A stretch of DNA of 64,000 nt from Paracoccus sp. (in: a-proteobacteria) (lineage in GTDB: Bacteria; Pseudomonadota; Alphaproteobacteria; Rhodobacterales; Rhodobacteraceae). The notes beneath the pieces were generated by a model. The model saw only the letters and a list, made by a program, of their open reading frames with translations, had not been told where the DNA came from and did no database searches. The stretch's first letter is position 1. Every line of letters begins with the position of its first letter. The stretch spans positions 59,562 to 123,561 of the forward strand of contig NZ_JAUNTN010000007.1 of assembly GCF_030538695.1 (NCBI RefSeq). The letters run 5' to 3'. The position numbers were made by a program, and so were the translations under genes. Below, piece by piece: positions 8,937 to 61,474 of the stretch.

Positions 8937-10286
8937 TCAAGTTTCCAGAAGCCGGCGCAGAAGATCAACGTCTTCGGCAAGCTGCTGATCCTGCGGGGTC
9001 AGCTCCTCGATCTTGCGGATGCCGTGCATAATCGTGGTGTGATCGCGCCCGCCAAAGCGGCGGCCAATATCGGGCAAGGACCGGCTGGTCATCTGCTTGC
9101 ACAGATACATTGCAATCTGGCGCGGACGGGCAATGGCGCGGGCGCGTTTCGGCCCGATCATATCGGCCAGACGGATGTTGTAATGTTCGGCAACCTTGCG
9201 CTGGATTTCCTCGATCGTCAGCTTGCGGTCGCTGGCGCGCAGAATATCGGCAAGGCAATCCTGCGTCATTTCCAGCGTAATTTCACGGCCCATCAGGCTG
9301 GCAAAGGCGAACAGCCGCTGCAAAGCGCCCTCAAGGACGCGCACGTTCGAGGTGATCTTGCGGGCCAGAAACTCCAGCACACCAGAGGCGATTTGCAGGC
9401 CCGGATATTGCGCCCGGAAGGTCTCGGCCTTGGTTTGCAGGATGCCAAGGCGCAATTCGTAATCGGTCGGGTGCAGGTCCACGATCAGCCCGCAGGACAG
9501 GCGCGACTTGATCCGATCCTCAAGATCCTTGATCTCGCCCGGTGCGCGGTCGGCAGAAATAACGATCTGTTTGCCCTGATCGACCAGCGCGTTGAAAGTG
9601 TGAAAGAACTCCTCCTGCGTGGAATCCTTGCCGGCGATGAACTGCACATCATCGACCATCAGCACGTTCACGGTGCGGAACATTTCCTTGAAATCCATGA
9701 CGGTGCGTTCGCGCAACGCCTGAACAAAGCGATACATGAACTGTTCCGCCGACAGATACAGCACCCGCGAATCAGGCTGGCGGGTCTGAATCTCGCGTGC
9801 GATGGCGTGCATCAGGTGGGTTTTGCCAAGCCCGACACCACCATACAAAAACAGCGGGTTGAAGGTGACGGGGCCGCCTTCGGCCACACGGCGGGCAGCG
9901 GAATAGGCCAGCTCATTCGGCTTGCCCACGACGAAATTGTCAAAGGTGAAACGCGTATCCAGCGGGGCGCTGATGTCATCACGCACCGGCGCAGGGCGGG
10001 CCGGGCCGGCAGCCACGGCACCCGCACCCAAAGATGCGGCAGGACGGCTGGCTGCGATTTCAAAAACAATACGATCAACCGGATGGCCTGCATCGTTCAA
10101 CGCCCGCAGAATCGGGTCCGAGAAATTGCGCGACACCCAATCGGACATGAAGCGGGTCGGGCTGGTCAGCTCGGCCACACCATCGTTCAGCCCGGTCAGG
10201 CGCAGTTTCTCGATCCAGGCTGCAAAATTATCCGCACCAACGGTTTTCCGCAGCGTCGAGCAGGCCTGACCCCAAATATCGTCCAT
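8937..10286 (-). CDS. dnaA: Chromosomal replication initiator DnaA
   Basis: A 449-residue AAA+ initiator. An N-terminal domain (MDDIWGQACSTLRK) is followed by a short linker (about 90-115), the ATPase domain with Walker A GGVGLGKTH and Walker B VDDVQFI, and a C-terminal DNA-binding domain with GGRDHTTIMHGIRKIEEL, which reads DnaA boxes. I chose ATG 10286 because AAGGA lies about ten bases upstream on the coding strand and the protein then begins with the conserved domain. A start 22 codons further upstream only adds Arg/Gly-rich, non-conserved sequence. Confidence 0.97.
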   Translation of the reverse strand: MDDIWGQACSTLRKTVGADNFAAWIEKLRLTGLNDGVAELTSPTRFMSDWVSRNFSDPILRALNDAGHPVDRIVFEIAASRPAASLGAGAVAAGPARPAPVRDDISAPLDTRFTFDNFVVGKPNELAYSAARRVAEGGPVTFNPLFLYGGVGLGKTHLMHAIAREIQTRQPDSRVLYLSAEQFMYRFVQALRERTVMDFKEMFRTVNVLMVDDVQFIAGKDSTQEEFFHTFNALVDQGKQIVISADRAPGEIKDLEDRIKSRLSCGLIVDLHPTDYELRLGILQTKAETFRAQYPGLQIASGVLEFLARKITSNVRVLEGALQRLFAFASLMGREITLEMTQDCLADILRASDRKLTIEEIQRKVAEHYNIRLADMIGPKRARAIARPRQIAMYLCKQMTSRSLPDIGRRFGGRDHTTIMHGIRKIEELTPQDQQLAEDVDLLRRLLET

Positions 10287-10770
10287 TTTCGTTTCGTCCT
10301 TCCATGTCCCCAACCCCCGCCCGGAACGACCGGCAGGACGACGATTCAGCACACGGGAGACACAGCACCACCCACCCGGCCAATGACCGGACAGCGCGGC
10401 AAATCTGTTCCGTCAGACACGAAGCCGGGCCCGTGGCAGCGGGCCGCGAGGCTTCCGGGCTGGATCGCGTGGCAGCGCAATCTGGCCTGCCGCCGAATCG
10501 CCCGCATCCGTTTGGGATGCGAAATGCCTGTTCTGGCAAGGATTCGACGGGGTGTCCCCCAATGCGACGTGAATCGCTGCAAGGAAGCTAACAATCCACA
10601 GCCCCCCCCTGCAACCGATCTTCGCGCTTGACATAAAAATCGGCGGGCCGAATCTGGAACATGCGTAAAATTACGCAACACATTCCAAAAAATCTATTAA
10701 ACACATACCCTTAGCGCAAACATGCAAAAGGGCGCATCCCTAGTGGAATACGCCCAAAAACTGTGTTTTC
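10287..10770. other. Intergenic region upstream of dnaA
   Basis: About 480 bases without a convincing gene. The dnaA-proximal 300 bases are GC-rich and hold overlapping open frames of low-complexity type. The part near 10620-10770 is AT-rich and contains a 7-bp-arm inverted repeat (10662-10677). It probably carries the dnaA promoter. I looked for an origin but found no cluster of DnaA boxes; the nearest match, CAATCCACA at about 10592, has two mismatches to TTATCCACA. Confidence 0.5.
10662..10677. promoter_or_regulatory. Inverted repeat upstream of dnaA, candidate operator
   Basis: TGCGTAA-AA-TTACGCA: two perfect 7-bp arms with a 2-bp centre, in the AT-rich part of the dnaA upstream region. 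On the dnaA strand TTGCGT could serve as a -35 element, placing the palindrome over the promoter. The binding protein is not known to me. Confidence 0.5.
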
Positions 10771-10799
10771 TGCATTAAAACGGGGGCTGCACGCCCCCG
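10771..10799 (-). terminator. Rho-independent terminator of rpsT
   Basis: Just downstream of rpsT: 7-bp stem CGGGGGC/GCCCCCG with a 5-base loop (10781-10799), followed on the minus strand by TTTTAATG. It would end rpsT transcription before dnaA. Confidence 0.8.
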
Positions 10800-10806
10800 A
10801 AATGGC

Positions 10807-11073
10807 TTATGCCGACAGCGCCTTCACACGTGCCGCCAAGCGCGAGATTTTACGCGACGCGGTATTCTTGTGGATAACACCTTTGGTCACGCCGCGCATC
10901 AGTTCCGGCTGCGCGGTTTTCAGCGCCTCAGCGGCAACAGCAGCGTCCCCACCGGCAATGGCTTCCTCGACCTTGCGGATGAAGGTGCGGATACGCGAAC
11001 GACGGGCTTTGTTCACTTCGGTGCGGCGCTCGATCTGGCGGGCGCGTTTCTTCGACTGGGGCGTATTGGCCAT
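10807..11073 (-). CDS. rpsT: 30S ribosomal protein S20
   Basis: An 88-residue basic protein starting [17 protein letters not shown] and containing [15 protein letters not shown] and [19 protein letters not shown], all typical of S20, which binds 16S rRNA in the small subunit. I chose ATG 11073 (AGGAC about ten bases upstream); the longer open frame adds 34 non-conserved residues. rpsT upstream of dnaA is a conserved alphaproteobacterial arrangement. The conserved IHK codons happen to create a perfect DnaA-box match on the minus strand. Confidence 0.97.
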
Positions 11074-11222
11074 GGGTGTGGTCCTGTTCTTGCAATATAT
11101 CGGTTGCACGAAAAGACCCAAGACACCGTTCCAAAGAACGGCACTGATTCTTGCCTTAAGCGGGCCCACGCGCATGTAAGCCCCGGCCTATAAGGCAGCC
11201 GGGGCGAAAAGAAAAGCGAAAA

Positions 11223-11999
11223 TCAGCGGTCGCGGAACTGCGGCTGACGTTTTTCAAGGAAAGCCGCCATGCCTTCTTTCTGATCCTCGGTCGCAAACAG
11301 CGAATGGAACAGGCGGCGCTCGAACAGCAGCCCTTCGCGCAGCGTGGTTTCATAGCTGCGGTTGACGGCCTCTTTGACAGCCAGAGTGCTGATTGCGGAT
11401 TTCTCGGCAATTTTGCGGGCGGTCGCCATCGCCTCGGGCAACAGCTTGGCCGCCGGAATCACCCGGCTGACAAGGCCGGAACGCTCGGCCTCCTCGGCAT
11501 CCATGAAGCGGCCGGTCAGGTTCATTTCCATCGCCTTGGATTTGCCGACGAATCGGGTCAGCCGCTGGGTGCCGCCGATACCCGCGATCACGCCCAGGTT
11601 GATTTCCGGCTGACCGAACTTGGCCGTATCCGCCGCAAGAATGAAATCACAGGCCATCGCCAATTCGCAACCACCGCCCAGCGCATAACCCGCAACCGCC
11701 GCGATGATTGGTTTGCGCACCCGCAGGATACGGTCGATTTCCGCGCCGAACAGGTCTTGGGAAAACACCTCGGTATAGGTTTTTTCCGACATTTCCTTGA
11801 TGTCCGCGCCCGCCGCGAAGGCCTTGTCGCTGCCGGTCAGCACGATGCAGCGCACCTTGTCGTTGCTGTCGGCATCGGCCAGCGCCTCTCCCAGCTCCGT
11901 CAGCAAGGCCGAATTCAGCGCGTTCAGCGCCTCGGACCGGTTCAGGCGAATCAGCGCCACATGGTCTTCGATTTCAACGATCAGGTTCTGGTAAGCCAT
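11223..11999 (-). CDS. Enoyl-CoA hydratase (crotonase family)
   Basis: A 258-residue crotonase of classic length. The CoA-binding AAGADIKEM loop, oxyanion-hole [15 protein letters not shown] with the first catalytic Glu, and [13 protein letters not shown] with the second catalytic Glu are all present, so it should hydrate trans-2-enoyl-CoA in beta-oxidation. The C-terminus with FLEKRQPQF is also typical. It is transcribed with rpsT-dnaA-dnaN on the minus strand, about 150 bases upstream of rpsT; a gene of this type beside rpsT is common in the family as I recall. Substrate chain length cannot be told. Confidence 0.92.
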
Positions 12000-12162
12000 C
12001 AGTCTGCCTTTGCGAGATCAGTTGCCCATCACTAACAGGTGAACATCCACCGTGCCAGCATCTTATCGCCCGGACCCCAGCCGTTGCCCGATACGACGCG
12101 ATCCGTTATGCTGTTTGTTGCTTGCGTCGTTCCGGTGATTGGACCCCACAGGCGCAGGCGCG

Positions 12163-12190
12163 GACGGTCGGATCACCCCGACCGTCTTTT
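12163..12190 (+). terminator. Rho-independent terminator with no plus-strand gene before it
   Basis: 9-bp perfect stem GACGGTCGG/CCGACCGTC, 6-base loop, then TTTT on the plus strand. The neighbouring genes are both on the minus strand. A promoter-like pair, TTGCCC (12084-12089) and TATGCT (12107-12112), 17 bases apart, lies upstream, so the unit could express a small RNA of about 70 nucleotides (about 12119-12190). Confidence 0.6.
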
Positions 12191-12205
12191 AGCGCGATCC
12201 GTCTT

Positions 12206-13051
12206 TTACCGCTGACAGGCCGGGCAAAAATAGCTGCTGCGCCCGGATTGCACGATCCGCTGGATCACGCCTCCGCAGCCCGGCGTTGGACAAGCTGCGC
12301 CTTCGCGGTCGTAAACCCGGAAACTGTGCTGGAAATAGCCCAGCTCGCCCGTCGCCTGCCGGTGGTCGCGCAGCGAAGACCCGCCCGCCGCAATCGCCTC
12401 GGTCAGCACGTCGCGGACATAACCGACCAGCGCCGCAAGCCGCGCAGCCCCGATCCGCCCCGCCGCCCGACGCGGGTCGATCCCTGCACGGTGCAACGCC
12501 TCGGACACATAGATATTGCCCAACCCCGCCACGATCCGCTGATCCAGCAGCGCCGCCTTGACCGGCGCACGGCGGTTCGCAAAAACTGCCCGCAGGTAAC
12601 CGGGACTGAAATCCGGCGACAATGGTTCCGGCCCCAAATGCGCCAGCAAGGGATGTTCCTGCCCCTCGCGCACCAGATCGACCATGCCAAAGCGGCGGGC
12701 GTCGTTGAACACCACCACACCCCCGGCACCAGTATGAAACACCACATGATCGTGACGTGGCAGAACGGCCGGGTCGCGGTGGAACTGCGCCATCGCATCG
12801 CCCTGCACCAGCAAACGCCCCGACATGCCCAGATGCAGCAAAATCGACCCGCCCCGATCCAGATCCATCAGGATATATTTCGACCGCCGTCGCAGCGCAT
12901 CGACCCGCGCGCCCGTCGCCATCTGCACCAGATCCGGCGGCATCGGCCAGCGCAGATCGGGGCGACGCAGCTCTAACCGGGTGATCTGCTGCCCTTCCAG
13001 CACGGGAATCAGACCCTGACGGACGGTCTCGACCTCTGGCAGTTCTGGCAT
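12206..13051 (-). CDS. mutM: Formamidopyrimidine-DNA glycosylase
   Basis: A 281-residue DNA glycosylase/AP lyase of normal length. The N-terminal PELPEVET supplies the catalytic Pro and Glu after Met removal; a central helix-two-turn-helix region and a C-terminal zinc finger with four cysteines (CPTPGCGG and CPACQR) follow. It removes 8-oxoguanine and ring-opened purines. I chose the ATG at 13051 because Pro must be residue 2; the longer frame adds 18 residues before it. It diverges from ubiE, 76 bases away. Confidence 0.97.
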
Positions 13052-48411: not shown

Positions 48412-50499
48412 ATGCTCCGCGCCCTGCTTTCGACCTCTGCCATTCTGATTGCCCTGCCCGCCTTGGCGCAGGAGGACACCGTGGTTCTGGATACCGTCGT
48501 TCTGACCGGATCAAGCTATGAAACCGAAGGCAGCGGCAGCTATACCACCGATCTCGTGTCCGTCGGTGAGAAAGAGGCCATCGACCCGCGCAAGATCCCG
48601 CAGACCACCAGCGTTGTGACCCATAAGCGGATCGAGGATGCCGATTACACTTCGCTGGATACCGCCATGGCGAAAACGCCGGGGATGCTGTCACTGACCA
48701 ATGACAATGGCCGCTCGTCCATCTATTCGCGCGGGTTCGAGCTGGACTACCTGTATTATGACGGCCTTCCCGCGCCTTTGTCGTCGATCTATGGCAGCCA
48801 GCCGGATATGTCGATCATCGACCATGTGGAAATCCTGAAAGGCCCCTCCGGCCTGTTCATCGGCACCGGGGAACCCGCCGGTTCGGTCAACATGCGGCTG
48901 AAACAGGCCAGCGACGTGTTCGGCGGCAGCGTGAGCGCATCGGCCAACAGCTTTGGCCGGGGCCGGGTGCAAGGCGATGTGACTGGGCCGCTGAACAGCG
49001 ACGGCAGCCTGCGCGGCCGCGCGGTTCTGGCCTATGAGGATGGCGACGGCTTTGTGAACAAACAGGAAAACGGCGTCGCCTCGGCCTATGGCACGCTGGC
49101 TTATGACATTGACCCCGACACCACCGCCACCCTGTCCATCAGCCATATGAAACGCGACATCAAACCGTTCAACGGCCTGCCGACCTATGCCGATGGCAGC
49201 CTGCTGGACATCGACCGCAAGACCACCACGGCGGCGGATTGGAACGATTTTAATTCCACCGCGACCGATGTGCTGGCGGCAGTTGAACACCGGCTGGAAA
49301 ACGGCGGTTTCATCAAGTTCGGCACCCGCTATGCCCGGCATAAGGCGGATTTCCTGTATGGCTGGGCCGGGTCGGCAGCCAGCGCAGACGATACGGTCAA
49401 CGGGCTTGCCTATCTGGGGCGCGAGTTTGATTCCAACTCGCTGGCCTTTGACGCCTTTGCCAGCCTGCCCTTTACCCTTGGCACGGTTCAGGGCAACGCC
49501 ATTATCGGCGCGGATTACCAGCGGGTGAAAACCGATCTGGACACCGCGCGGGGCCGCATCGCCGGGACATTCGACCTGAACGACTGGGATGTGTCCGGTG
49601 TGGCGCGGCCTGCGGTGAACTACACCACTGGCCAGCATGACGACGTGACGCGCTATGGTCTTTATACGCAGATCCGCCTCGCCCCGGTCGATCGCATGAC
49701 CATCGTCGGCGGGGCGCGGCTGTCGTGGTATGAAAGCGAATCCTATAACCGCGTGACCGGCGCGGCCAACCCATCGCAAAAGATCAACGGCAAGGTGACG
49801 CCCTATATCGGCGCGACCTATGACCTGACCGACCAGATCACCGCCTATGCCGGCCACACCGCCATGTTCCAGCCGCAGACCGAACTGGACGCGAACGGCA
49901 ATATCATCGACCCGCGCGAAGGCAGCCAGACCGAGCTTGGCCTGAAGGCCGATTTCGGCGGCATCAACGCCTCGGCCGCGCTGTTCGACCTGCGCGACAA
50001 GAACCGGGCGCAACTGGTCGAGGGCCAGACCTATTACGCCGCCAGCGAAAAGGTGCGGGTGCGCGGGCTTGAGCTGGAAGCCTCGGGCGAGATCACACCG
50101 GAATGGCGCGTCACCGGCGGCTATGTCTATACCGACACCAAATATCTGAACGGCAGCAATCAGGGCGAGACCTTCTCGACCTATACGCCCCGGCATCTGT
50201 TCAAGCTGTGGGGCGAATATGACCCGCAGCAGGGCGCGCTGGAGCGGTTCAGCTTTGGCGCGGGGGTCACCGCCATGTCGTCATTCTCCAGCGTCGCGCA
50301 GGGGGTCGAGGTCAAGGCGCCGGGCTATGCGGTGATCGACGCCAGCGTTGCCTATCAGATCGACGACCTGACCGAAGTGCGGCTGAACGTCAACAACCTG
50401 CTGGACCGGGATTATTACAGCCGCGTCGGCTCGACCTCGGTGTTCAACTTCTATGGCGAGCCGCGCAACGCCACGCTGAAACTGACCCGCCGGTTCTAA
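48412..50499 (+). CDS. TonB-dependent siderophore receptor
   Basis: A 695-residue outer-membrane receptor. Signal peptide (residues 1-19, ALPALAQ), TonB box region around DTVVLDTVVLTGSS, plug domain with VEILKGPSGLFIGTGEPAGSVNM (the conserved plug end) and a 22-strand barrel ending in LNVNNLLDRDYYSR and a terminal Phe (LTRRF). The plug motif places it with FhuE/FpvA-like ferric siderophore receptors. AAGGA nine bases before ATG 48412 supports the start. I found no clear iron-responsive box upstream. No transport partner genes lie next to it. Confidence 0.93.
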   Translation: MLRALLSTSAILIALPALAQEDTVVLDTVVLTGSSYETEGSGSYTTDLVSVGEKEAIDPRKIPQTTSVVTHKRIEDADYTSLDTAMAKTPGMLSLTNDNGRSSIYSRGFELDYLYYDGLPAPLSSIYGSQPDMSIIDHVEILKGPSGLFIGTGEPAGSVNMRLKQASDVFGGSVSASANSFGRGRVQGDVTGPLNSDGSLRGRAVLAYEDGDGFVNKQENGVASAYGTLAYDIDPDTTATLSISHMKRDIKPFNGLPTYADGSLLDIDRKTTTAADWNDFNSTATDVLAAVEHRLENGGFIKFGTRYARHKADFLYGWAGSAASADDTVNGLAYLGREFDSNSLAFDAFASLPFTLGTVQGNAIIGADYQRVKTDLDTARGRIAGTFDLNDWDVSGVARPAVNYTTGQHDDVTRYGLYTQIRLAPVDRMTIVGGARLSWYESESYNRVTGAANPSQKINGKVTPYIGATYDLTDQITAYAGHTAMFQPQTELDANGNIIDPREGSQTELGLKADFGGINASAALFDLRDKNRAQLVEGQTYYAASEKVRVRGLELEASGEITPEWRVTGGYVYTDTKYLNGSNQGETFSTYTPRHLFKLWGEYDPQQGALERFSFGAGVTAMSSFSSVAQGVEVKAPGYAVIDASVAYQIDDLTEVRLNVNNLLDRDYYSRVGSTSVFNFYGEPRNATLKLTRRF

Positions 50500-51431
50500 C
50501 GCGGGCTGCCCGCCCGGCGCTGGCGTGCGCGTTCCAGCCCAAGCTGCCGCTCGCGCCAGATAATCAGCATCCCCGCAAGGATCACCAGCGCCGCCCCGGC
50601 CAGCATGGTCGGGGTTGCAATTTCGTCAAAGAAGAACCAGCCAATCGCCACCGATAAGATCATCGACGTATATTCAAACGGTGCAATCAGCGACGCCTCA
50701 CCGAAACGATAGGCCGAGGTCATAAAGATCTGCGCCAGACCGCCCAACAGGCCGATGGAAACCAGCAGCGCCGCCGTTTCCGCATCGGGCCAGACCCAGC
50801 CAAAGGGCAAGGTCAGCAGGCTAAGCAGCGCCGAAGTCACCGAAAACCAGAACACGATGGCCGAGGTCCGTTCATGCGCGGTCAGTTTGCGCACGAAAAC
50901 CTGCGCCAGCGCCGCGAATATGGCTGCCCCAAACGCCGCCGTCACACCCAGGCTGCGCCGCCAGTCCGGGCCTTCGCTGCCAAAGCCGATCTGCGGGGCC
51001 AGCACGATCAGCACCCCCAGCAGCCCCAGCGCGACCATGGACAGGCGGAACAGCCGCACCCTTTCACCCAGCAGCAGCGCCGCAAAAATGACCACCCAAA
51101 GCGGCGAGGCATAACCAATCGCTATGGCCTCGGGAAAGGGGATCATCGCAAAAGCCCAAAAGCCAAGCGCCATCGAGATCGTCCCAACGATGCCGCGATA
51201 GAAATGCCCCATGGGCCTGACCGTGCGCAATCCGGCCAGCACATCGCCACCTTGCAACAATAACCACAGCAAAATCACTGGAATGGCAAAAAGAGACCGA
51301 AAGAACACCTGCTGCCCCGGCGGCACGCCAAGCCCATCACCAGCGGTCGCCTTGACCAGCGCCCCCATCACCGTGAACACGGCAACCGAAGCGCATTTCA
51401 GCATGATCCCGCGAATGGGGCTGTCCATCAT
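50496..51431 (-). CDS. DMT-superfamily transporter (EamA domains)
   Basis: A 311-residue inner-membrane protein with ten predicted membrane helices in two EamA repeats (about 8-140 and 155-295). GFWAFAMIPFPEAIAIGYASPLWVVIFAALLLGERV and SLIAPFEYTSMILSVAIGWFFFDE are the typical repeat ends. The family exports or imports small metabolites; no substrate can be named. Its stop overlaps the receptor stop by four bases (convergent). The C-terminal 25 residues are very basic. Confidence 0.88.
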   Translation of the reverse strand: MMDSPIRGIMLKCASVAVFTVMGALVKATAGDGLGVPPGQQVFFRSLFAIPVILLWLLLQGGDVLAGLRTVRPMGHFYRGIVGTISMALGFWAFAMIPFPEAIAIGYASPLWVVIFAALLLGERVRLFRLSMVALGLLGVLIVLAPQIGFGSEGPDWRRSLGVTAAFGAAIFAALAQVFVRKLTAHERTSAIVFWFSVTSALLSLLTLPFGWVWPDAETAALLVSIGLLGGLAQIFMTSAYRFGEASLIAPFEYTSMILSVAIGWFFFDEIATPTMLAGAALVILAGMLIIWRERQLGLERARQRRAGSPR

Positions 51432-51446
51432 GCGCCTTTCCGGGGC

Positions 51447-52844
51447 CTAGCCCTTGGCCATATCCTTCATCGCCAGACGGATATGCCGGTTATCGGCCCG
51501 CGCCAAGGCCCAGCGCCCGAACTTCAGCGCCAGCCCATCGCGGCCATTCTTGCGCAGCCGGTCGAACAGCTCTTTGTGATAGCGCGGGAAATCACGGCGG
51601 GCGCGCAGCAGGCGATAGAACTCGGCTTCGGTCAGGCTGCCATCCAGTGCGCCAAGGATGATCGGGGACAAAATCCCCATTTGCGACAGCGACGACCCCA
51701 GACGATGCCCCAGCAACGGACAGCGCAGCTTCATCACATTCGGCCCGGTGAAACGGCGGACATGACCGCTGTCCAGTGGCTCATGCGGATCATACAGGAT
51801 CATCACCCGGCCCGCCGCCAGACTGGCCGTGGTCGCATCGCCATAAGGCCCGGAGAAATTACGGTCCCATGCGGTTTTATAGCGGGTTTCCCAAGGCACC
51901 AGCGTCTTGTCCAGCGTCGATTGCGGGCTGATCGCCACCACATCCGCACCGGGACAGGCAGCACTGAAGGCCGAGGCCGCATAGCCGCCCATCGAGGCGC
52001 CATAGAACACCACCCGGCCAAATTGCTTGAAAAAGCCCTGATCGCGCAGCCGGTCGAACTCGGCGCTGACCCACGGGTTGCGATACCACGTCCAGCCCCC
52101 CGCCAGAACGCCCAGCATGGACCAGCCTTGCTTCTCGATGAACTCATAGCCCCAGGGGCGGCGCGTGTCGCGCTTGTTCATCGCAATATCGAGGTTGTCA
52201 AAGGTGACGACCAGCACATCCTTGCTGCGCGGAACATACAGAAAGCTGTGTCCCTCTGGCCCGTCGCTGAAAAAACCGTCCTCGCCCGCCAGACCGCGGG
52301 CAATCGTGGCCCAACTGTCATCCGCAACCGGCGCGGGCGGGTTGGGCAGGAACCGCAGCCGCCAACGCTGGCTGTCGTCACCCGCATGTTCCGCGATGGT
52401 TTCCACCGCCCCCAGCTTGCGCAGGAACGGAAACGCGCCCGAACCTTTCGCCACATCGACGAACACCACGCTGTCAGCGTGAATCCCACGCTCCAGCACC
52501 GGCCGCAAATGCTGGATTTTCCAACGATCCCCGAAAGAAGTCAGCGCCAGAACCACATCGGCGGGGCGCAAATCCTGTTCCTTGCGCACCACCCGGATAC
52601 GCTCTGCGGGAATCCCCGCGTCCTCCAACTGCGCCAGATAGCGTTTCAACCACGGGCGGCGCGGGTTGAACGCACCGTCCTTGCCCATATCCGCCACCAG
52701 AATGTCGCAGTCAAAGCGCCGTGACAGCGCGATCACCTGCGCCGCCGATTGTCCCGCCACATCCATCACCGAGGCGCAGGCGGTCAGACCGCCCAGCGCC
52801 GCATCAAGGGCAGCATTGAAAGCATCGGCGGCGGGATTGCTCAC
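51447..52844 (-). CDS. Two-domain protein: methyltransferase-like plus alpha/beta-hydrolase-like
   Basis: A 465-residue protein of no characterised family that I recognise. Residues 1-165 look like a Rossmann methyltransferase-type fold (VMDVAGQSAAQVI, DILVADMG, VVLALTSFGDRW). Residues 205-410 look like an alpha/beta hydrolase: nucleophile Ser284 in GASMGG, candidate acid Asp352 (ILYDPHEP) and candidate His380 (LLGHRL). The second domain aligns by eye with the C-terminal half of the glycosyltransferase at 56446-58428. The start is GTG 52844, overlapping the upstream glycosyltransferase stop (GTGA). It probably modifies a glycan made by the neighbouring enzymes; this is inference. No signal peptide is seen. 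Confidence 0.7.
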   Translation of the reverse strand: MSNPAADAFNAALDAALGGLTACASVMDVAGQSAAQVIALSRRFDCDILVADMGKDGAFNPRRPWLKRYLAQLEDAGIPAERIRVVRKEQDLRPADVVLALTSFGDRWKIQHLRPVLERGIHADSVVFVDVAKGSGAFPFLRKLGAVETIAEHAGDDSQRWRLRFLPNPPAPVADDSWATIARGLAGEDGFFSDGPEGHSFLYVPRSKDVLVVTFDNLDIAMNKRDTRRPWGYEFIEKQGWSMLGVLAGGWTWYRNPWVSAEFDRLRDQGFFKQFGRVVFYGASMGGYAASAFSAACPGADVVAISPQSTLDKTLVPWETRYKTAWDRNFSGPYGDATTASLAAGRVMILYDPHEPLDSGHVRRFTGPNVMKLRCPLLGHRLGSSLSQMGILSPIILGALDGSLTEAEFYRLLRARRDFPRYHKELFDRLRKNGRDGLALKFGRWALARADNRHIRLAMKDMAKG

Positions 52845-53881
52845 GATTTGGCCCCTTTCGGCTTGGTGGCCCGGCTGGCGACCGTCTTTGACGTGGCGGC
52901 TTTTTTCGTCGCTGCGGGCTTTTTTGCGGTGGTCGCCTTTTGGGTCGCGCTTGCCTTGGGGCTTGCCGGTTTGGCGGCGGTCTTTTTCACGGCAGCCTTT
53001 TTCACGGCGGCCTTTACCGGCGCAGCCTCAGCCGTCTCGACCGCAGCCGCAGGTGCCTTGCGTTTGATCGGAGCCGCGGCAGGGTCAATACCGTGCTTTT
53101 TCAGCAAGCGCCCAATCAGACTGCGCGGACGCGCAACCCCATCGAACTTTTCCAACAGACGGGCGCGCATCCGGCGCCCATAAAGATGGATCGAGATGGT
53201 TTCATCGGTCAGGTATTTATCCGCAGCAAAACCCGGCCGGGTCATCGACATACGGTCAGAATAAGGCACTGGATATAATGCAGCTTGCGGCAGGGTATAT
53301 TTCACCTCGCCGGTTTTTTTCAGATAATGGGTCAGCGCATGAGGCCCCCAAACACCCCAGCGCATTTCACCGGCATGAACCGGATTTCCGGCGGCCATAC
53401 GGGCCTCCATCTCGGCGCGCTCTTCGCCTTTATACCATTCGGGAATACCATAGGGATCTTTGGTCATCTCCAGAACCGCCGCCAGTGTTTCGCTGTCTTG
53501 CGGCAGGCCCAGGACACCGCCATTGATACCATGCTTGGATTCCCAGGCGTGCATATGTCCGTTCGGGGTTTCAAACCGCCGGACACAATAGGCATCCGTA
53601 TCGACCCAGATCAGATCGTCATGTTTGGCCAGCATGTGATAGCGGAAGACATCAGAATGAAGCGCCGGGCTGCCAGTGCGTTCATTGGTCAGGAGATTAT
53701 CCGATGAGAGGATTTCATTCGCATCGCGCATCTCGACCCCCTCAGGGGCATTGGTGACGCCTTCATAAGTATAAAGAATCGTATGCTGACCAGCATCCAC
53801 AAAAGACTTCAGACAAAGCTGTTCCAGATAGCTGAGGTTGCCCCCGATCCACAATGCAGCAACGGCGTATTCCTTGGCCAT
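52841..53881 (-). CDS. Glycosyltransferase with histone-H1-like Lys/Ala tail
   Basis: A 346-residue protein. Residues 1-250 resemble GT32-type (capsular/Och1-like) glycosyltransferases: IWVDTDAYCV carries a D-x-D motif (94-96), preceded by ALHSDVFRYHML, the usual donor-site helix. From about residue 267 the chain becomes low complexity, with Lys, Ala, Thr and Pro repeats (AAVKKAAVKKTAAKPASPKA and so on) to the end. Such a basic tail could bind nucleic acid, acidic polysaccharide or membrane. It overlaps the downstream gene by four bases and lies 19 bases after the large glycosyltransferase stop. Confidence 0.75.
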   Translation of the reverse strand: MAKEYAVAALWIGGNLSYLEQLCLKSFVDAGQHTILYTYEGVTNAPEGVEMRDANEILSSDNLLTNERTGSPALHSDVFRYHMLAKHDDLIWVDTDAYCVRRFETPNGHMHAWESKHGINGGVLGLPQDSETLAAVLEMTKDPYGIPEWYKGEERAEMEARMAAGNPVHAGEMRWGVWGPHALTHYLKKTGEVKYTLPQAALYPVPYSDRMSMTRPGFAADKYLTDETISIHLYGRRMRARLLEKFDGVARPRSLIGRLLKKHGIDPAAAPIKRKAPAAAVETAEAAPVKAAVKKAAVKKTAAKPASPKASATQKATTAKKPAATKKAATSKTVASRATKPKGAKS

Positions 53882-53900
53882 CTGTCAGCCCTTTCCTTTG

Positions 53901-56210
53901 TCAGTGTTGCGTTTCGCCACTGTATTCGACTGTAAAGAAAAAATCATCGTCAGGATCACGGGCCACGACATCATCAGGGACAACCTCTGGCCCGGCGATA
54001 TAGACATTCGATCCGAAATGCCCATGCAACCGCGTCAGCTTGCGGGTGCGGTCGCTGTTCAGCGCGGTGTGGAACGCCTGATAGTTCGGCTGCGCCTTCA
54101 ATTCCCCGATCTTGGCCTTATGCGCCTCAACGCATTGCAAATGCATGGCCGCGATTTCGGGATCAGCCATCATCCGGTCATATTCGGCCTGAAGCAACGG
54201 CAGGATGCGGTGCATCCGCGTGTCCTCGACCACGTTGTGATTCATGCGGAACCAATAGGCCATGCCCTGATCGCGGTCCACATGGTTCACCCGGCCCCGG
54301 TCACGCTTGACCAGAAAACTTTCAGCCGAGCGCACCGCGTAATGGTTCAGCGCCACAAGATCATAGCCATAGGTGCCGGAATGAGACCGCCACGCATTGC
54401 GCCATTGATCCTTGGGCATCAGCTTGCCCGAGCCATTCACCCAGTTGATCCGGTCCACCGCCTGCGGCATCAGCCCCTTGGGCCGGTGAACACCCAGTTT
54501 CTTGAACAATCCGTCATTGCGGTAAAGCGTCTTGAAACCCCATGCCTGATGCGGCTTGTTCGCAAACTCACGGGCGGCGCGGGTGAATATCTGGGTGATG
54601 AACTCATCCTTGTATTCATCGACATCGGCATTACCGAACAGCCGCCATGTGCAGGAAATCATATTCGCATCCGGCACCGCATCGAACAGCGCCTTCATGG
54701 TGCCGTCGCCGGTATGGATGGCGATATATTCATCCACATCCATGCAGATCACCCAATCGGCGTTCTGAATGATGGGTTCATTATTGGCCGCATCCAGCGC
54801 CGCGTGCTGCGGTTTCATATTGACTTCACGATAGGGGTTATCGCGCCATTGCAGATAGCCCTTGCGTTCCAGCAATTGCAAAAGCTCGTCGGTGCCATCG
54901 GTGCAATCATTGGTATAGACCAGAAAATCACGCACCCCGATGGCGCGGTGATAGGCGATCCATTCCAGAATGAACGGACCTTCGTTCTTCATCGTGGTGA
55001 CAATGGCGACATGATCGGTGCGCTTGGCCGCCTCGGCACGGGCAGCGGCCTCATCCGCGGGGATGCGCAAGGGTTTCGCCCCCAGCGCTTCGGCCATGGT
55101 CAACAGGCGGTCATCTTCGATCAGGCTCGATTTCGGCACGATCTGCCCGACCTTTGACCGCTCGATCCCGTGCCGCAGCGCCATGAAACGCCAGAACGGC
55201 CAAGGCGGCGCAGATGTTTTTGCGCCAAGGATGCGCAGCATCATCCAGATCGTGCCGGAAGGCATCCGCGCAGGCGCCACGCACCAGCGTGATTCAGCGG
55301 ATTGCGCGTCAAAGCGACGGCAGATGTGATCTCCGAAGCCCGGCTCGGTGCCTTTACGCAGACCCCAGGGATAGACCCGCTCACCCCGCAAAGGCAGCAC
55401 GCCCATGGGCATATCCTGCGCCATGTCAAAGATGCTGCCGCGTTCATCCGGGGGGGCGACCAGATCCATCAGCTCCAGATTGGCAACGGCGCGGGCAGAG
55501 GCCAGAAACTTGGCCCGGATCAGATCGAACAGCAGGCGATAGGACAGCGGCGCGTGCCACGGGTCGGGCGCAGGCTGCTCCATCCGGTCCTTGCCCGGCG
55601 CGTCGGGCGCGTTCATCGGGTGCTGTTCCGCCCCGCGCGCCGCATCACCCAGCGGCATGTCGCAATCGACCACCATCACGATCATGCCCGCCAGATCATC
55701 CGCCGCAGCCGGATCATCCGCCAGAAGCCGCGACAGATCGGCCACCAGATCGTCGGCATGGCCGGGGGCCGCACGGTCGATCACCAGCGCCGCATCGGCA
55801 CGATGCTGGCGACGATGCCACAGCAGCCAGTCACGCAAAACTTCGGGCGTTTCATTGTTGCAATGACCAAGGATCACATTGCGGCCCGCAAACAGACCGG
55901 TTTCCGACGGCTCGACCCGGATCAGGGCATCACAACCGGCCAGTGGCAGCTTGACCTGACCATCGGCCTCACGCTCAAGATCCATCACCGCCGCACCGGA
56001 CACGATCCGCGACCAGCGCACATTGCCCTGACCCTCGGGGATCAGCGCATCGGCGTCGATCCCGTCCGAGAAATACAGCCGCGCCTGACCGGGCAAATCT
56101 GCAACCGGTACCGCTGCCAGCAAGGCCCCACCACGCGCAGCATCATTACAAAGCTGACCCAGCGGGCGGGCGGTAATAGTTTGGCGCAGGATGGTGGAAG
56201 GCACGGCCAC
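53901..56210 (-). CDS. Large glycosyltransferase (GT92/GT2-like) with extra N-terminal half
   Basis: A 769-residue protein. Residues 398-700 form a glycosyltransferase domain of the GT2/GT92-like (DUF23) type: HVAIVTTMKNEGPFILEWIAYHR at its start, TNDCTDGTDELL, CMDVDEYIAIH (D-x-D 491-493) and HYAVRSAESFLVKRDRG. The first 390 residues have no clear family, but residues 112-190 (VILGHCNNETPEVLRDWLLWHRR ... VVDCDMPLGDA) parallel the same pattern and may be a degenerate copy. It is the first gene of the minus-strand arm, divergent from the next one. Sugar and acceptor are unknown. Confidence 0.75.
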   Translation of the reverse strand: MAVPSTILRQTITARPLGQLCNDAARGGALLAAVPVADLPGQARLYFSDGIDADALIPEGQGNVRWSRIVSGAAVMDLEREADGQVKLPLAGCDALIRVEPSETGLFAGRNVILGHCNNETPEVLRDWLLWHRRQHRADAALVIDRAAPGHADDLVADLSRLLADDPAAADDLAGMIVMVVDCDMPLGDAARGAEQHPMNAPDAPGKDRMEQPAPDPWHAPLSYRLLFDLIRAKFLASARAVANLELMDLVAPPDERGSIFDMAQDMPMGVLPLRGERVYPWGLRKGTEPGFGDHICRRFDAQSAESRWCVAPARMPSGTIWMMLRILGAKTSAPPWPFWRFMALRHGIERSKVGQIVPKSSLIEDDRLLTMAEALGAKPLRIPADEAAARAEAAKRTDHVAIVTTMKNEGPFILEWIAYHRAIGVRDFLVYTNDCTDGTDELLQLLERKGYLQWRDNPYREVNMKPQHAALDAANNEPIIQNADWVICMDVDEYIAIHTGDGTMKALFDAVPDANMISCTWRLFGNADVDEYKDEFITQIFTRAAREFANKPHQAWGFKTLYRNDGLFKKLGVHRPKGLMPQAVDRINWVNGSGKLMPKDQWRNAWRSHSGTYGYDLVALNHYAVRSAESFLVKRDRGRVNHVDRDQGMAYWFRMNHNVVEDTRMHRILPLLQAEYDRMMADPEIAAMHLQCVEAHKAKIGELKAQPNYQAFHTALNSDRTRKLTRLHGHFGSNVYIAGPEVVPDDVVARDPDDDFFFTVEYSGETQH

Positions 56211-56445
56211 GGAACATCTCGAATCTGACCCGGAATACCGGGCCGATACTTATGCGCATTTACGCTAAGGGTCAACTATTTCACAATTTTCGTATAGAAA
56301 TATGCGTTTTCGGCACAAGCGGCCACCCGCAGGCATCGGCGGAAAACCGCTGGTCAAACGATATGATTTTCTGTATCAAAGCAATGCTTTCAATGACTTT
56401 ATCAGCCGCGTTTGCCGCGGAAAACGCCAGCCAGACGGTAACCCA

Positions 56446-58428
56446 ATGCCCGACCAGACCCGTTTTCTTGCCCTTGCCACCGTCAAGAACGAAGGTGCAT
56501 TCCTGCTGGAATGGCTGGCCTGGCACCGGCTGATCGGCTTTACCGATTTCTTGGTCTTTCAGAACGGCTCGGTCGATGGCACCAAGGAATTACTGGCCCT
56601 GTTGGCTGAACATGGGCTGATCACCTATCACGACAATGACGGCATCCGCTTCCGCTCTCCGCAGCGCCATTCTTATCGTCAGGCGAGCCAATCCGATTTG
56701 TTTCGTCAGGTCGATTGGGCCATCGCCATCGACGCAGATGAGTTCATCCGTATTGATGTTCCCGGCGGCACCCTGCCGGATCTGATCGCCGCCTATCCCG
56801 ATGATGCCGAAGAAATCCGTCTGAACTGGCATAATTTCGGCCACAGCCAGCAATACACGCTGGAATCTGATCTGGTGGTGTCGCGGTTCACCCACTGCCT
56901 GCCCGAAGACATACGGCGCAAAAACCGTATTCCGACCAAAACAATTTTCCGCCCGACATCCTTTGCCCGCTTTGGCGTTCATTCCCCAAAATCGCACGTC
57001 GCGCCGACATGGCATTCCTATGACGGTTCGGCCAACCGGATCGAAAGCCCCGAAACGCTGGCGGTTGGTCATCACGACCCAGAGGCCGGCCGGCTGGCGT
57101 CGGTGCATCATTACATCGTCAAGGATACCGAAAACTTCGTGCTGAAATGCGACCGGGGCAAATCCGGCCATGTGAACCGCGACATGAAGGAACTCTACTG
57201 GAGGAACTGGAACGCCCGTGGCGGCATTGATACGACCATGGCCGCACAGGCCGGACGCATCGCAGAGGAAATCCAGCGTATCGACGCGATTTGCGGCGGG
57301 CAGGCACTAAAGATCCAGCAGGCGGCAATGGTGTGGCGGCATGAACGCTATGCGCAATTGATGGGTGATCCTGAATATGCGATCATCACCAAAGAGATTC
57401 TCGAATACGAAAATCAGCCGGTTCCCGAAGCCATTGCACGGGTCGCAAGCCAATTGCCCAGCCCTGAACAACCTGCCCCGGCGCTGCCCGATACCCCCCC
57501 TGCAGCGGTTGCAGAACCCGCAGGCCCGAACCTTGATTTCAGCCTGATGCGCGAAATGGCACAGACGCAGGGCGGTGAGTTCCACGAAACAGAGCATCAT
57601 GTCGTGGTGCATATTCCGGGCCGGGACCGGCTTGTCTTCGGCTTTGACAACCTGTCGTCGATGGGCGTTCCCGGCCCGCGCAAACCCTGGGCATTCGACC
57701 TGATCCGGGCGCAGGGCTGGGGCGCGCTTGGGGTGATGGTCAAGCGCAATGACTGGTTCCGCTCGGATGCGCTGTTCGATGTGCTGGAGGATATGCGCGA
57801 CCGTGGCATTTACGCCAGCTATCCTGCGGTTTCGATGTATGGGGCCTCGATGGGGGCCTTTGGCGCAGCGGCTTTCGCGCCGCTGGCACCGGGCTGCACG
57901 GTTCTGGCCTTTGCGCCGCAATCTTCGCTGGCCGCCGATCTGGTTCCGTTCGAGCGTCGCTATCGCTATGCACGCCGCCCGGAATGGTGGGCGCTGCCGC
58001 GCTATCGTGACGCCGCCGAGGGGATCAAGGCTGCGGGCAAGGCGATCATCGTCCACGACCCCTTGATCGGTGCCGACAAAGCCCATGCCGAGCGACTACT
58101 GGGTGATAACGGTGTCGATCTGCGCTGGCCTTTTCTGACGCATAAGATCCCGCCCCGTTTCAAGCTGATGAAAATCCTGAAGGATATTGCGCTTGAAGGC
58201 ATGGCCGGAAGGCTGGACCGCGCCCGGTTCTGCGAACTGATGCGGGCGCGGCGCGATTGCAACGCTTACCTTGTTGATATGCTGTCTGGTGCTGCTCAGC
58301 GGGGGCATACGAAACTGGCACAGGCCGCGCTGAAACAGGCTAGAAACCATAAGGACAACTGGAAGCTGCGCCAGCTCGAACGCAGCATACGGCGACAAGT
58401 TTCTGAAACAGAATCCGTCGGAAACTGA
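56446..58428 (+). CDS. Glycosyltransferase fused to an alpha/beta-hydrolase-like domain
   Basis: A 660-residue fusion. Residues 1-320 are a GT2/GT92-like transferase (FLALATVKNEGAFLLEWLAWHR, FQNGSVDGTKELL, IAIDADEFIRI with D96-A-D98, HHYIVKDTENFVLKCDRGKSGHV). A Pro/Ala linker (about 335-362) leads to a hydrolase-like domain (380-600) paralogous to that in the gene at 51447: Ser468 in GASMG, Asp538 in IVHDPL, His566 in FLTHKI. I chose ATG 56446 because the conserved domain begins eight residues later; an earlier start at 56302 adds 48 basic, non-conserved residues. It leads the plus-strand arm of the cluster. Confidence 0.72.
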   Translation: MPDQTRFLALATVKNEGAFLLEWLAWHRLIGFTDFLVFQNGSVDGTKELLALLAEHGLITYHDNDGIRFRSPQRHSYRQASQSDLFRQVDWAIAIDADEFIRIDVPGGTLPDLIAAYPDDAEEIRLNWHNFGHSQQYTLESDLVVSRFTHCLPEDIRRKNRIPTKTIFRPTSFARFGVHSPKSHVAPTWHSYDGSANRIESPETLAVGHHDPEAGRLASVHHYIVKDTENFVLKCDRGKSGHVNRDMKELYWRNWNARGGIDTTMAAQAGRIAEEIQRIDAICGGQALKIQQAAMVWRHERYAQLMGDPEYAIITKEILEYENQPVPEAIARVASQLPSPEQPAPALPDTPPAAVAEPAGPNLDFSLMREMAQTQGGEFHETEHHVVVHIPGRDRLVFGFDNLSSMGVPGPRKPWAFDLIRAQGWGALGVMVKRNDWFRSDALFDVLEDMRDRGIYASYPAVSMYGASMGAFGAAAFAPLAPGCTVLAFAPQSSLAADLVPFERRYRYARRPEWWALPRYRDAAEGIKAAGKAIIVHDPLIGADKAHAERLLGDNGVDLRWPFLTHKIPPRFKLMKILKDIALEGMAGRLDRARFCELMRARRDCNAYLVDMLSGAAQRGHTKLAQAALKQARNHKDNWKLRQLERSIRRQVSETESVGN

Positions 58429-58446
58429 CCGGCGGGCCTCATTCCA

Positions 58447-59376
58447 ATGACAATCCCTGTCATTCTTTTGCACCGCAAGGGTCAGGCTCGGATGGGCGGC
58501 AAGATCATGCGCTGCGATCAACTTGCGGCGATCTGCAACAGGTCACTTGGCCAGCGTTACAGCTTTTCGGTTCAAAGCCTGCTGAACAATCCGGGTCCAG
58601 CGCGTGATGCCGGTATCCGGGCGCTGACAGGTGCGGTGGTCATCGGGCTGAAAGGCGTGTTTCAAAATCTGAGCGCCGCCGAGATGAAACAGATCAAATC
58701 CACCTCTCTGGCCGTCGGGATGGATTATCTGGACATGACCGCACGACGCCTGTTTGCACCTGATTTTGTTGATTTCCACATCTCTGCCTCAGTATCTGGA
58801 CAGCGACATCTGGTTGCCTGCGCTAAGCGCGACAGGCAGGCCACAGGCCGGGTGTTCTACCTGCCGCATCACTGGGATCCACGGCTGACACGGCAAAAGC
58901 CGCAACAGGATCAATGGGCGGTGGCTTATTTCGGCCGGGTCGAGAACGCCCATATCCCCGAAACCGCCCGCAGCCTGCTGACCCAGCCCGATTATGGCAA
59001 GGACAGCGATTTCGGGCAGGTCCTGGCGCAGATGTGCCGCACACCGCTGCACTATGCCGTGCGGCCCGAGCTTGGGGCCGCCACCGCACCGCTGAAACCC
59101 TTTACCAAAGGCTTCAATGCCGCCGCCTGCGGGGCGAATATCATCTGCACCGCCGACACCACCGACGCGATTCACTATCTTGGCAAGGATTATCCCTACC
59201 TGCTTCCCGACAGTTCGGATGCCACGATTCTGGACTGTCTGGCACGCGCCAAGGATGATTTCGGCGGCCCGGTCTGGAATGATGCGCTGGATCGGATGCA
59301 AATGCTGCGCAAGCGCACCGCCCCCAGAATGGTGGCACGCCATATGGGCAAGATATTGGATCAGGTTCTGGCCTGA
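58447..59376 (+). CDS. Uncharacterised protein, possible GT-B glycosyltransferase
   Basis: A 309-residue protein 18 bases downstream of the fusion gene. I do not recognise the family. The fold pattern suggests a GT-B enzyme: an N-terminal half with MGGKIMRCDQLAAIC, a middle linker (VFYLPHHWDP), and a C-terminal half with PFTKGFNAAACGANIICTADTTDAIHYLG, which resembles the donor-binding helix-loop of GT-B transferases. A CapM/WcbB-like role in surface polysaccharide is possible. No signal peptide or membrane helix. Codon usage matches the neighbours. Confidence 0.6.
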   Translation: MTIPVILLHRKGQARMGGKIMRCDQLAAICNRSLGQRYSFSVQSLLNNPGPARDAGIRALTGAVVIGLKGVFQNLSAAEMKQIKSTSLAVGMDYLDMTARRLFAPDFVDFHISASVSGQRHLVACAKRDRQATGRVFYLPHHWDPRLTRQKPQQDQWAVAYFGRVENAHIPETARSLLTQPDYGKDSDFGQVLAQMCRTPLHYAVRPELGAATAPLKPFTKGFNAAACGANIICTADTTDAIHYLGKDYPYLLPDSSDATILDCLARAKDDFGGPVWNDALDRMQMLRKRTAPRMVARHMGKILDQVLA

Positions 59377-59404
59377 CCAGACATCCCCGCAACAAACGAC
59401 CAAT

Positions 59405-59617
59405 ATGCAGGTATCCGACACCCCGTATATCGCAGACATGCTGCAAAAACGTCATGGGATCAGGTTTTTCCCACCTGTCCGCGAGACGGTGCCGCTTGTG
59501 TCTCCTCATGCCCGGTTCGAGGCTTTTACCCGGTTCCTGCCCGGCCAGTTCATGCCGCTTGGCGCATTCAGCTATTCACAAAGCTGGTTTTCTTTGCTGC
59601 ATCAGTCGGGGCGCTGA
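59405..59617 (+). pseudogene. Truncated O-acetyltransferase fragment
   Basis: A 70-residue open frame (MQVSDTPYIADMLQKRHGIR...). Its last part, FLPGQFMPLGAFSYSQSWF, resembles the region just before the hexapeptide-repeat domain in polysaccharide O-acetyltransferases, where IGRYCSIA normally follows. Here the chain stops at LLHQSGR and the following DNA belongs to the tetR gene, so the catalytic domain is missing. No good ribosome-binding site is seen. A 3 x 7-bp tandem repeat lies eight bases after the stop. The family call is tentative. Confidence 0.45.
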
Positions 59618-59624
59618 ACGGCTT

Positions 59625-59645
59625 GCGAACAGCGAACAGCGAACA
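59625..59645. repeat. Tandem repeat 3 x GCGAACA
   Basis: Three perfect head-to-tail copies of the 7-mer GCGAACA in the gap between the truncated acetyltransferase fragment and the convergent tetR gene, near the point where the fragment breaks off. Confidence 0.85.
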
Positions 59646-59674
59646 ATAAGACCCCGGATCAGATACCGCCGCAA

Positions 59675-60202
59675 TCACGCAATCCGCGACCGGATCGCGG
59701 TCAGCAGGGCGGTGACACCCTCCGGGCTGGTGCTGTTGATGCCGAAAAGCCGGTCTGATCGCAGGCCGTTCAGCGCGTGGATCACCAGCTCCGCCAGCAC
59801 CGGATCATCGGATTCGGCGCGGGCGCGGGTCAGGATGTGGTCCTGATAGTCACCAAGCGGGGCCAGAATGGCGGGATCTTCGGCCAGCGCCGCCAACAGC
59901 CCGGCATCGTGATCATCCTGATCCCAGTCGCGCTCGAACCCGTCCACGATCTCATGCAGAACGGCATTGGGCCGGGCCGGATCGCAGTTTTCCAGCCGCG
60001 CCCGCGCCTCGGTCAGAAAATCCTCGACCAGCGCCTGCATCAGCGCCGATTTCGAGGGGAAATGATACAGCAGCCCACCCTTGGACACCCCCGCAAGCGC
60101 CGCGACCGCCTCCAGCGAGGCACCGCCTACGCCCTGCGTCATGGTGATTTCCTGAGCCGCCTTCAGGATTTTCGCGCGGGTCGCTGTAGGATTGCGGGCC
60201 AT
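59675..60202 (-). CDS. TetR-family repressor of the second RND operon
   Basis: A 175-residue TetR protein. The helix-turn-helix (residues 8-55: TRAKILKAAQEITMTQG, ASLEAVAALAGVSKGGLLYHFPSK) is clear. The C-terminal domain contains HDAGLLAALAEDPAILAPLGDYQ, which resembles the TetR_C domain found with RND regulators. I chose ATG 60202 (MARNPTATRAK); an ATG five codons earlier (60217) would abut the palindrome. It faces the RND operon across a 96-base gap with a perfect operator, so it likely represses both directions. Confidence 0.9.
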   Translation of the reverse strand: MARNPTATRAKILKAAQEITMTQGVGGASLEAVAALAGVSKGGLLYHFPSKSALMQALVEDFLTEARARLENCDPARPNAVLHEIVDGFERDWDQDDHDAGLLAALAEDPAILAPLGDYQDHILTRARAESDDPVLAELVIHALNGLRSDRLFGINSTSPEGVTALLTAIRSRIA

Positions 60203-60223
60203 GGTGTGACTTTGCATTGACAA

Positions 60224-60239
60224 TACCGTCCAGACGGTA
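60224..60239. promoter_or_regulatory. TetR operator of the second RND operon
   Basis: TACCGTC-CA-GACGGTA: perfect 7-bp arms, 2-bp centre, between the divergent tetR and adaptor genes. A TTGACA (-35) at 60217-60222 and TAAAGT at 60238-60243 flank it, so a bound repressor would cover the promoter spacer. Confidence 0.8.
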
Positions 60240-60298
60240 AAGTTTATGCCTGACGGTTTCAACCCCTGATTCCGGGGGATAACGGCGGAGGCTATCAG

Positions 60299-61474
60299 GT
60301 GGTCAAGCGTTTCATCATCGCCATTCTGGCGCTGGTTCTGATCGGCGGCGGGCTGGTCGGGTTCAACCTGTTCCGCGACAAGATGATCCGCGACATCTTT
60401 GCCAACCTGCCGGTGCAAGTGCTGCCGGTCACGACGGTGACGGTGCAGCCGGTGACATGGCAGCCGGTTATCGAGGCCATCGGCACCGCCAATGCGGGGC
60501 AGGGGGTTGAACTGACGGTCGAGGCGGCGGGCATTGTCCATGAGGTTGCCTTCAGCCCCAACCAGAAGGTTCAGGCGGACGATCTGGTGCTGCGGCTGGA
60601 TGATGTGACGCAGGTGGCCGATCTGGAATCGGCGCAGACTCAGCTTGATCTGACCCAAACCGCGCTGAACCGCGCCCGCCAGCTTCGCGGTCGGGGCGTG
60701 GCGACGGATGCGGCGTTCGAGGCCGCCGAGGCCAATTTCCGCACCGCCGAGGCCACCCTTGCCCGCGCCCGCGCCGCGCTGCAAACCCGGCGGCTGGTTG
60801 CGCCCTTCACCGGCACCATCGGCCTGCCGCGTGTTGATCCCGGCGCTTATATCACCCCCGGCACGGTGGTGGCGACCTTGCAGGATCTGGATCGGATGCG
60901 GGTTGATTTTACCCTGCCAGAGCAGGAATTGCCGCATCTGCATATCGGCCAGACTATCACCATCAGCAGCGATCAGGGCGACGACAGCCTGACGGGCAGG
61001 ATCTCGGGGATTGATCCCAAGATCGACTCGGCCAGCCGGATGGTGGCGATCCGTGGCGAGGTCGAAGGCACCGCGGGTCGCCTGACGCCGGGCCAGTTCG
61101 TGCAGATCAGCGTCGCCCTGCCGGTCGAGGAAAACGCCATCGCCCTGCCGCAAACCACCATTGTTTCAAGCCTCTATGGCGATTACGTTTATCGCCTGCA
61201 CAAGCTGGATGAAACCGATGAGGACGGCAGCCCGCAGTTCGAGGTGCGGCAGGTCTTCATCCAGCCGGGCCGCCGCGCCGCCGGGCTGATCGAGATTCTT
61301 GGCGACGCGCTGGCACCGGGCGATCAGATCGTGACTTCGGGCCAGAACCGGCTGTCGAACGGTGCGCGGGTGACGGTGGACAACAGCGTGACGCCAGACG
61401 GGCAGGGGCAGACCCCGCCTGCTGCGCCGCCCGCTGAGCCAGCAGCAGAACCCGCAGCGGAGGCCAGCCAGTGA
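60299..61474 (+). CDS. RND efflux periplasmic adaptor
   Basis: A 391-residue membrane fusion protein with an N-terminal signal-anchor (IIAILALVLIGGGLVGFNLF, residues 6-25) rather than a clear cleavable peptide. The lipoyl domain (GIVHEVAFSPNQKVQADDLVLRLDD and LVAPFTGTIGLPRVDPGAYI), a short coiled coil and the beta-barrel (VDFTLPEQELPHLHIGQ) are typical of the MexE/CusB-like adaptors. The last 25 residues are Ala/Pro/Glu-rich. The start is GTG 60299 with GGAGG about eight bases before. It overlaps the permease start (GTGA). Confidence 0.9.
   Translation: MVKRFIIAILALVLIGGGLVGFNLFRDKMIRDIFANLPVQVLPVTTVTVQPVTWQPVIEAIGTANAGQGVELTVEAAGIVHEVAFSPNQKVQADDLVLRLDDVTQVADLESAQTQLDLTQTALNRARQLRGRGVATDAAFEAAEANFRTAEATLARARAALQTRRLVAPFTGTIGLPRVDPGAYITPGTVVATLQDLDRMRVDFTLPEQELPHLHIGQTITISSDQGDDSLTGRISGIDPKIDSASRMVAIRGEVEGTAGRLTPGQFVQISVALPVEENAIALPQTTIVSSLYGDYVYRLHKLDETDEDGSPQFEVRQVFIQPGRRAAGLIEILGDALAPGDQIVTSGQNRLSNGARVTVDNSVTPDGQGQTPPAAPPAEPAAEPAAEASQ

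Follow-up and report, generated by a model that had tools for sequence, protein, structure and literature searches.

A conserved and apparently undescribed candidate glycan cassette of the Rhodobacteraceae carries a serine-hydrolase-like domain without a family model

A 64,000-nucleotide stretch of the Paracoccus sp. contig NZ_JAUNTN010000007.1 (positions 59,562 to 123,561 of the forward strand; hereafter the window) contains five open genes that form two divergent arms, with A (51447-52844), B (52841-53881) and C (53901-56210) on the minus strand and D (56302-58428) and E (58447-59376) on the plus strand. A, B and C form the core of a conserved cassette of the Rhodobacteraceae and their linkage is far beyond chance. 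Judged from sequence, the glycan cassette is real, apparently undescribed and plausible in its mechanism, and its hydrolase-like domain has no model; literature searches, which covered open-licence papers only, gave no description of the cluster among the matches listed. The cassette probably builds and chemically caps a cell-surface sugar. In the preferred reading, which is given a probability of about 0.5, it is a cytoplasmic glycan-assembly system in which glycosyltransferases (GTs) build an envelope oligosaccharide and the hydrolase-like domain adds or removes an ester (acyl) group.

The cassette is found repeatedly in this large, mostly aquatic bacterial family, and relatives of its hydrolase domain are present in 151 of 198 family genomes, including many ecologically important marine bacteria, yet neither Pfam nor NCBIfam holds a model of its own for the domain common to A and D, and the database name given to stand-alone copies is implausible. 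If the preferred reading is correct, the cassette would open a way to the envelope glycans of these bacteria, which bear on biofilm and on receptors for phages and gene transfer agents (GTAs), and would offer a clear example of a transferase coupled to an acyltransferase, with both active and dead forms of the domain.

Conservation and linkage of the cassette

Relatives of the A hydrolase domain were also found in 60 of 101 genomes of the same genus, the window genome included, and full-length A, with both of its domains, in 4 of the 101 genus and 15 of the 198 family genomes among the matches listed. Outside the family, a profile detected the hydrolase domain weakly in six genomes of a 289-genome sample of the class (E 5e-18 to 4.5e-4). 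Full-length A was examined at 18 loci; its neighbour there is B or a B fusion, and C is linked at most of the loci whose flanks are long enough to show it.

A scan of named genomes yielded 257 loci, and neighbourhoods were compared mainly in the best 80 of these, a sample with many near relatives (many of them Marivita). B is the gene immediately upstream of A in 80/80 loci and forms a single open frame with it in 70/80, i.e. no stop is present between B and A in the frame of A; through this conserved single frame an esterase-like enzyme is physically joined to a transferase. C is within the retrieved sequence at 70 of the 80 loci, or at 49 of the 54 with flanks of at least 8 kb on both sides, and is divergent from B-A in 53 of the 70 loci that hold it. 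A further GT2_4 gene is found in 64/80 loci and a second hydrolase in 29/80. These counts indicate that the usual cassette is a hydrolase, a GT and C diverging from B-A, while in the window A, B and C share one arm and a GT-hydrolase fusion, D, occupies the other; the fusion is a variant of the window genome and some other genomes. The first-pass annotation, made from the window sequence alone, had described five genes in two diverging arms acting together, an idea that scattering of the genes in relatives would have contradicted: open frames and coordinates agree with that layout, including the GTGA overlap of A and B at 52841-52844 and the gaps of 19 bases (B/C) and 18 bases (D/E), and A, B and C stay linked in relatives.

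The serine-hydrolase-like domain

Protein A (465 aa) consists of an N-terminal Rossmann/methyltransferase-like domain (~1-165) and a C-terminal serine-hydrolase-like domain (~166-465) with S284, D352/D358 and H380 as putative catalytic residues. The predicted domain of A and D has the GxSxG nucleophile, acid and His of an alpha/beta serine hydrolase, and the GASMGG motif is present in 80/80 A proteins. Across 229 aligned domain rows, duplicates included, Ser and His are both kept in 170, both lost in 58 and discordant in one, and the two Asp (acid) positions are kept in 228 and 229 rows. In a tree of 194 tips the Ser-less form is a single clade of 52 tips (support 1.0) that arose by one change under parsimony and retains the acidic residues. 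The second hydrolase of the 80 loci, where present, is a separate gene that has lost Ser in 29/29 cases, and the Ser-less clade also takes in the hydrolases of all 16 loci of a second gene set, described below, that hold a ~790-aa GT.

Seventeen of 34 diverse active (S-type) domains matched Pfam Esterase (best 9.3e-6) and 13 matched Abhydrolase_6. Pfam also holds a family for Asp2, an enzyme considered below, and this family was not among the matches of the 34 domains at E≤0.1. The best profile match was a solved putative esterase, 4b6g (E 0.0021), and the nucleophile elbow is similar to that of the S-formylglutathione hydrolase/esterase class; however, only ~45 residues align, and the partners and context of the cassette domain are glycan genes. 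Fusion partners of the hydrolase-like domain elsewhere are GT2_4 and polysaccharide pyruvyl transferase.

A had initially been taken for a methyltransferase-hydrolase, of which the hydrolase half stands, with putative Ser, Asp and His kept, but the working methyltransferase does not. By hhalign (probability 98.7%), a methyltransferase-like neighbour protein is a relative of the N-terminus of A, but its GxG motif is replaced in A, leaving a degraded S-adenosylmethionine (SAM) motif, and across 18 members no Pfam methyltransferase family matched better than E 0.11. A class I SAM methyltransferase therefore failed on both glycine-rich motif I and family match, and for the same reasons a methylation step is unproven. 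At one related locus (L076, 7037-8617, minus strand) B bears a C-terminal methyltransferase-like domain with GxG intact, and an FkbM-type methyltransferase gene lies between B and A.

The glycosyltransferases

B (346 aa) is a GT32-like, GT-A-type glycosyltransferase by sequence, with DTD at residues 94-96 and a Lys/Ala-rich C-terminal tail. DTD is invariant in 11/11 aligned relatives, and a profile match to the solved glucosyltransferase SetA is weak but specific (E 5e-5). Pfam Gly_transf_sug is matched weakly by B itself (12.8 bits against a cut-off of 23) and by 3/11 relatives (best 0.0052); by Pfam the GT32-like assignment made at first pass is a tentative one.

C (769 aa) and D (708 aa, or 660 aa from an alternative ATG at 56446) both exceed the Pfam cut-offs of Glyco_tranf_2_4 (PF13704) and GT92 (PF01697), as expected of the two GT92/GT2-like enzymes originally proposed. 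The DVDE motif in the GT2_4/GT92 domain of C is invariant among 17 aligned C proteins. C differs from the known families in an additional conserved N-terminal domain of 390 aa, for which no Pfam match was obtained in any of the 17 members (residues 1-390); this domain is strongly conserved, with the motifs APDAPGKDRM, YPWRVR and GDHICRQFD. D differs in carrying a hydrolase domain, and the proposed hydrolase-fused glycosyltransferase is upheld: the C-terminal domains of D and A are homologous (36% identity), and that of D, in which the putative Ser, Asp and His are retained, falls among other active copies, some of them fused to a GT.

A shared chromosomal spot and a second gene set

pyrC, pyrE, dnaB or an AAA/CoxE gene pair is found among the neighbours of 23/80 loci. 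In other genera the same pyrC/AAA spot is occupied by a second gene set with the inactive hydrolase form, consisting of a GT2_4 gene, a sulfotransferase, a ~790-aa GT with a different N-terminus, an FkbM-like methyltransferase, another GT2_4 gene and a hydrolase. Among 18 hand-chosen loci of this second set (type II), the neighbours were AAA in 15, CoxE in 14, pyrC in 14, pyrE in 14 and dnaB in 12, and the set itself was represented by the hydrolase in 18, the ~790-aa GT in 16, the sulfotransferase in 13 and the methyltransferase in 10; genes in these loci and in the neighbour clusters were predicted with a home-made gene caller.

In the 198 family genomes, full C was present in 45 and the ~790-aa protein in 51 among the matches listed, and both in only one (Fisher p 9e-6, not phylogeny-corrected). 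These co-occurrence lists were compiled by hand and omit G217, G146, G212 and G155, with the C-terminal part only of the type II protein, as well as G202, G232 and G280, with the C-terminal part only of the C protein.

Function of the cassette and competing explanations

In the preferred reading, B (GT32-like), C and D (GT2/GT92) would transfer sugars to an envelope acceptor in the cytoplasm, and the hydrolase-like domains of A, tied to B, and of D would put on or take off a sugar ester (acyl) group during chain synthesis. The ester step would govern which transferase acts next, and the inactive domain copy at related loci is probably a binding or scaffold partner. We infer the acyl chemistry, this order of steps and a lipid-linked oligosaccharide as the acceptor. 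The glycan envisaged at first pass was built, methylated and ester-modified; building and ester modification are still the best reading, and methylation rests on the domain with the degraded SAM motif. A first guess at the acceptor is the lipopolysaccharide (LPS) core, because a Kdo transferase is present in 94/100 family genomes but a GT9 heptosyltransferase in only 8/100 at E≤0.001, with five above cut-off and the matches partial. The near-absence of the latter hints that the LPS core of the family must use other transferases.

A precedent is Asp2 of the streptococcal accessory Sec system, a cytoplasmic GxSxG enzyme that O-acetylates N-acetylglucosamine at C6 and blocks glucosylation there, with catalysis separable from its other role in export. 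The cassette domain resembles it in its predicted cytoplasmic location, in having a GxSxG nucleophile with putative Ser-Asp-His and in probably acting among cytoplasmic glycosyltransferases, but differs in that the cassette has no SecA2/SecY2 and that its hydrolase domain is fused to transferases. A tentative and rather doubtful extension is that an ancestral chromosomal glycan locus of the Rhodobacteraceae, with swappable gene sets, represents a Gram-negative counterpart of the Asp2 principle. Its transferases would be coupled physically to an enzyme for acyl capping that is partnered by a catalytically dead sister domain, and together they would determine how an LPS core free of heptose, or some other envelope glycan, is built.

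The same comparison could suit protein rather than lipid acceptors, i.e. cytoplasmic O-glycosylation in which, similarly to accessory Sec systems, the transferases and the ester-capping domain would act on a protein destined for export, for example an adhesin of the repeats-in-toxin (RTX) kind or another one secreted by the type I route. All cassette proteins look cytoplasmic: a hydropathy scan gave no signal peptide or clear membrane helix in any of them, D being barely at threshold (1.61) inside its hydrolase domain. This counts for the preferred reading too and fits the Asp2 precedent, and an RTX-repeat gene lies between pyrC and pyrE in 4/18 of the chosen type II loci (Pfam E 1.9e-38 for one). 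However, no acceptor protein or dedicated exporter recurs within the cassette and pyrC separates the RTX gene from it, and this explanation is considered unlikely.

A capsule or O-antigen locus of the Wzx/Wzy or ABC exporter type was rejected, as a Pfam scan of nine window proteins (48412-61474) plus TetR found no flippase, polymerase, exporter or nucleotide-sugar family, in line with the first-pass annotation. The cassette could instead be a side-branch module for an exopolysaccharide or capsule, cooperating with Wzx/Wzy or ABC genes at other genomic sites. Capsule genes can indeed be scattered; the initiation and export genes of Rhodobacter capsulatus lie away from rcc01081-01086, the GTA receptor capsule cluster. 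In addition, a Phaeobacter plasmid has YjbF/YjbH-type genes close to a related fusion of the hydrolase with pyruvyl transferase. Against this, the neighbour clusters examined show no recurrent gene of the export, polymerase or nucleotide-sugar kind, and a side-branch role is considered improbable. The rcc01081-01086 cluster is from the same bacterial family and is likewise devoted to glycan biosynthesis, but it is described as a capsule cluster with lspL1, and identity of the two was rejected because the described gene content differs, a distinction drawn from a partial description and not from sequence.

Flagellin or flagellar glycosylation is very unlikely. B-A lies among flagellar genes in 5/80 loci and the window genome has FliF, but C is unassociated with FliF, which is present in 35 of the 45 C-bearing genomes among the matches listed vs 148/198 overall (p 0.70), leaving 10 without it, and a flagellin glycosylation island was rejected on this result. 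Furthermore, C is absent within 10 kb of the Rhodovulum locus, and by a term search the main text of a transposon screen for motility in Phaeobacter inhibens names no glycosyl gene, although presence of the locus in the screened strain is not established. The five loci, four from Roseovarius (L145, L154, L160 and L163) and one from Rhodovulum imhoffii (L126), have B-A inside the flagellar cluster, with fliF/fliH/fliN/fliP on one side and flgI and others on the opposite side.

Several observations count against the preferred glycan-assembly reading. Joint loss of Ser and His is one event on the tree, therefore the 58 copies lacking them are not independent. A second hydrolase accompanies the cassette in only 29/80 loci, C is absent from 5/54 loci with long flanks, and C is wider than full-length A (45 vs 15 of the 198 family genomes, both among the matches listed). 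The pyrC/AAA neighbourhood is found at only 23/80 loci, and the two gene sets also track lineages, for which the Fisher test is uncorrected. Finally, a heptose-poor LPS is circumstantial evidence for the LPS-core guess.

Other features of the window

E (309 aa) is an accessory gene and possibly a GT-B-like enzyme. Relatives occur in 8/198 family genomes and adjoin a GT2_4 gene in two genomes besides that of the window, the visible flank being 1.5 kb for most. The original naming of E as a GT-B enzyme was not borne out by a useful Pfam match. Similarly, the 70-aa open frame F, 3' of E on the plus strand (59405-59617), had been called a broken O-acetyltransferase, which found no backing: it has no Pfam match, no plasmid match and one relative besides itself in 198 genomes. 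A and E have Pfam matches below threshold only, and A, C, D and E have no NCBIfam match at E≤1. An anti-phage defence or phage gene was rejected, PADLOC and PHROGs being without a match for A-E at E≤0.01. Third-position GC is 0.61-0.76 in A-E vs 0.76-0.80 in four flanking genes. An EamA-type permease gene overlooked at first pass (50496-51431, minus strand) follows A on the same strand with a gap of 15 bases and is possibly co-transcribed with it.

Copies of the hydrolase domain are also carried on plasmids. On Phaeobacter piscinae plasmid pP71_d a polysaccharide pyruvyl transferase-hydrolase fusion (10663-12672) sits beside a non-ribosomal peptide synthetase gene and an amino-acid ABC transporter, and a plasmid match of this kind recurs in 56 Phaeobacter plasmid records. 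On a Thioclava plasmid (L082), three hydrolase-domain proteins (7677-12927) have a formylglycine-generating enzyme and a sulfatase-like gene as neighbours. One of the three bears the database name phosphoadenosine phosphosulfate (PAPS) reductase, given to stand-alone copies on Thioclava plasmids, which was rejected because the Pfam matches of L082:11998-12906, one of the 34 domains scanned, list no such family.

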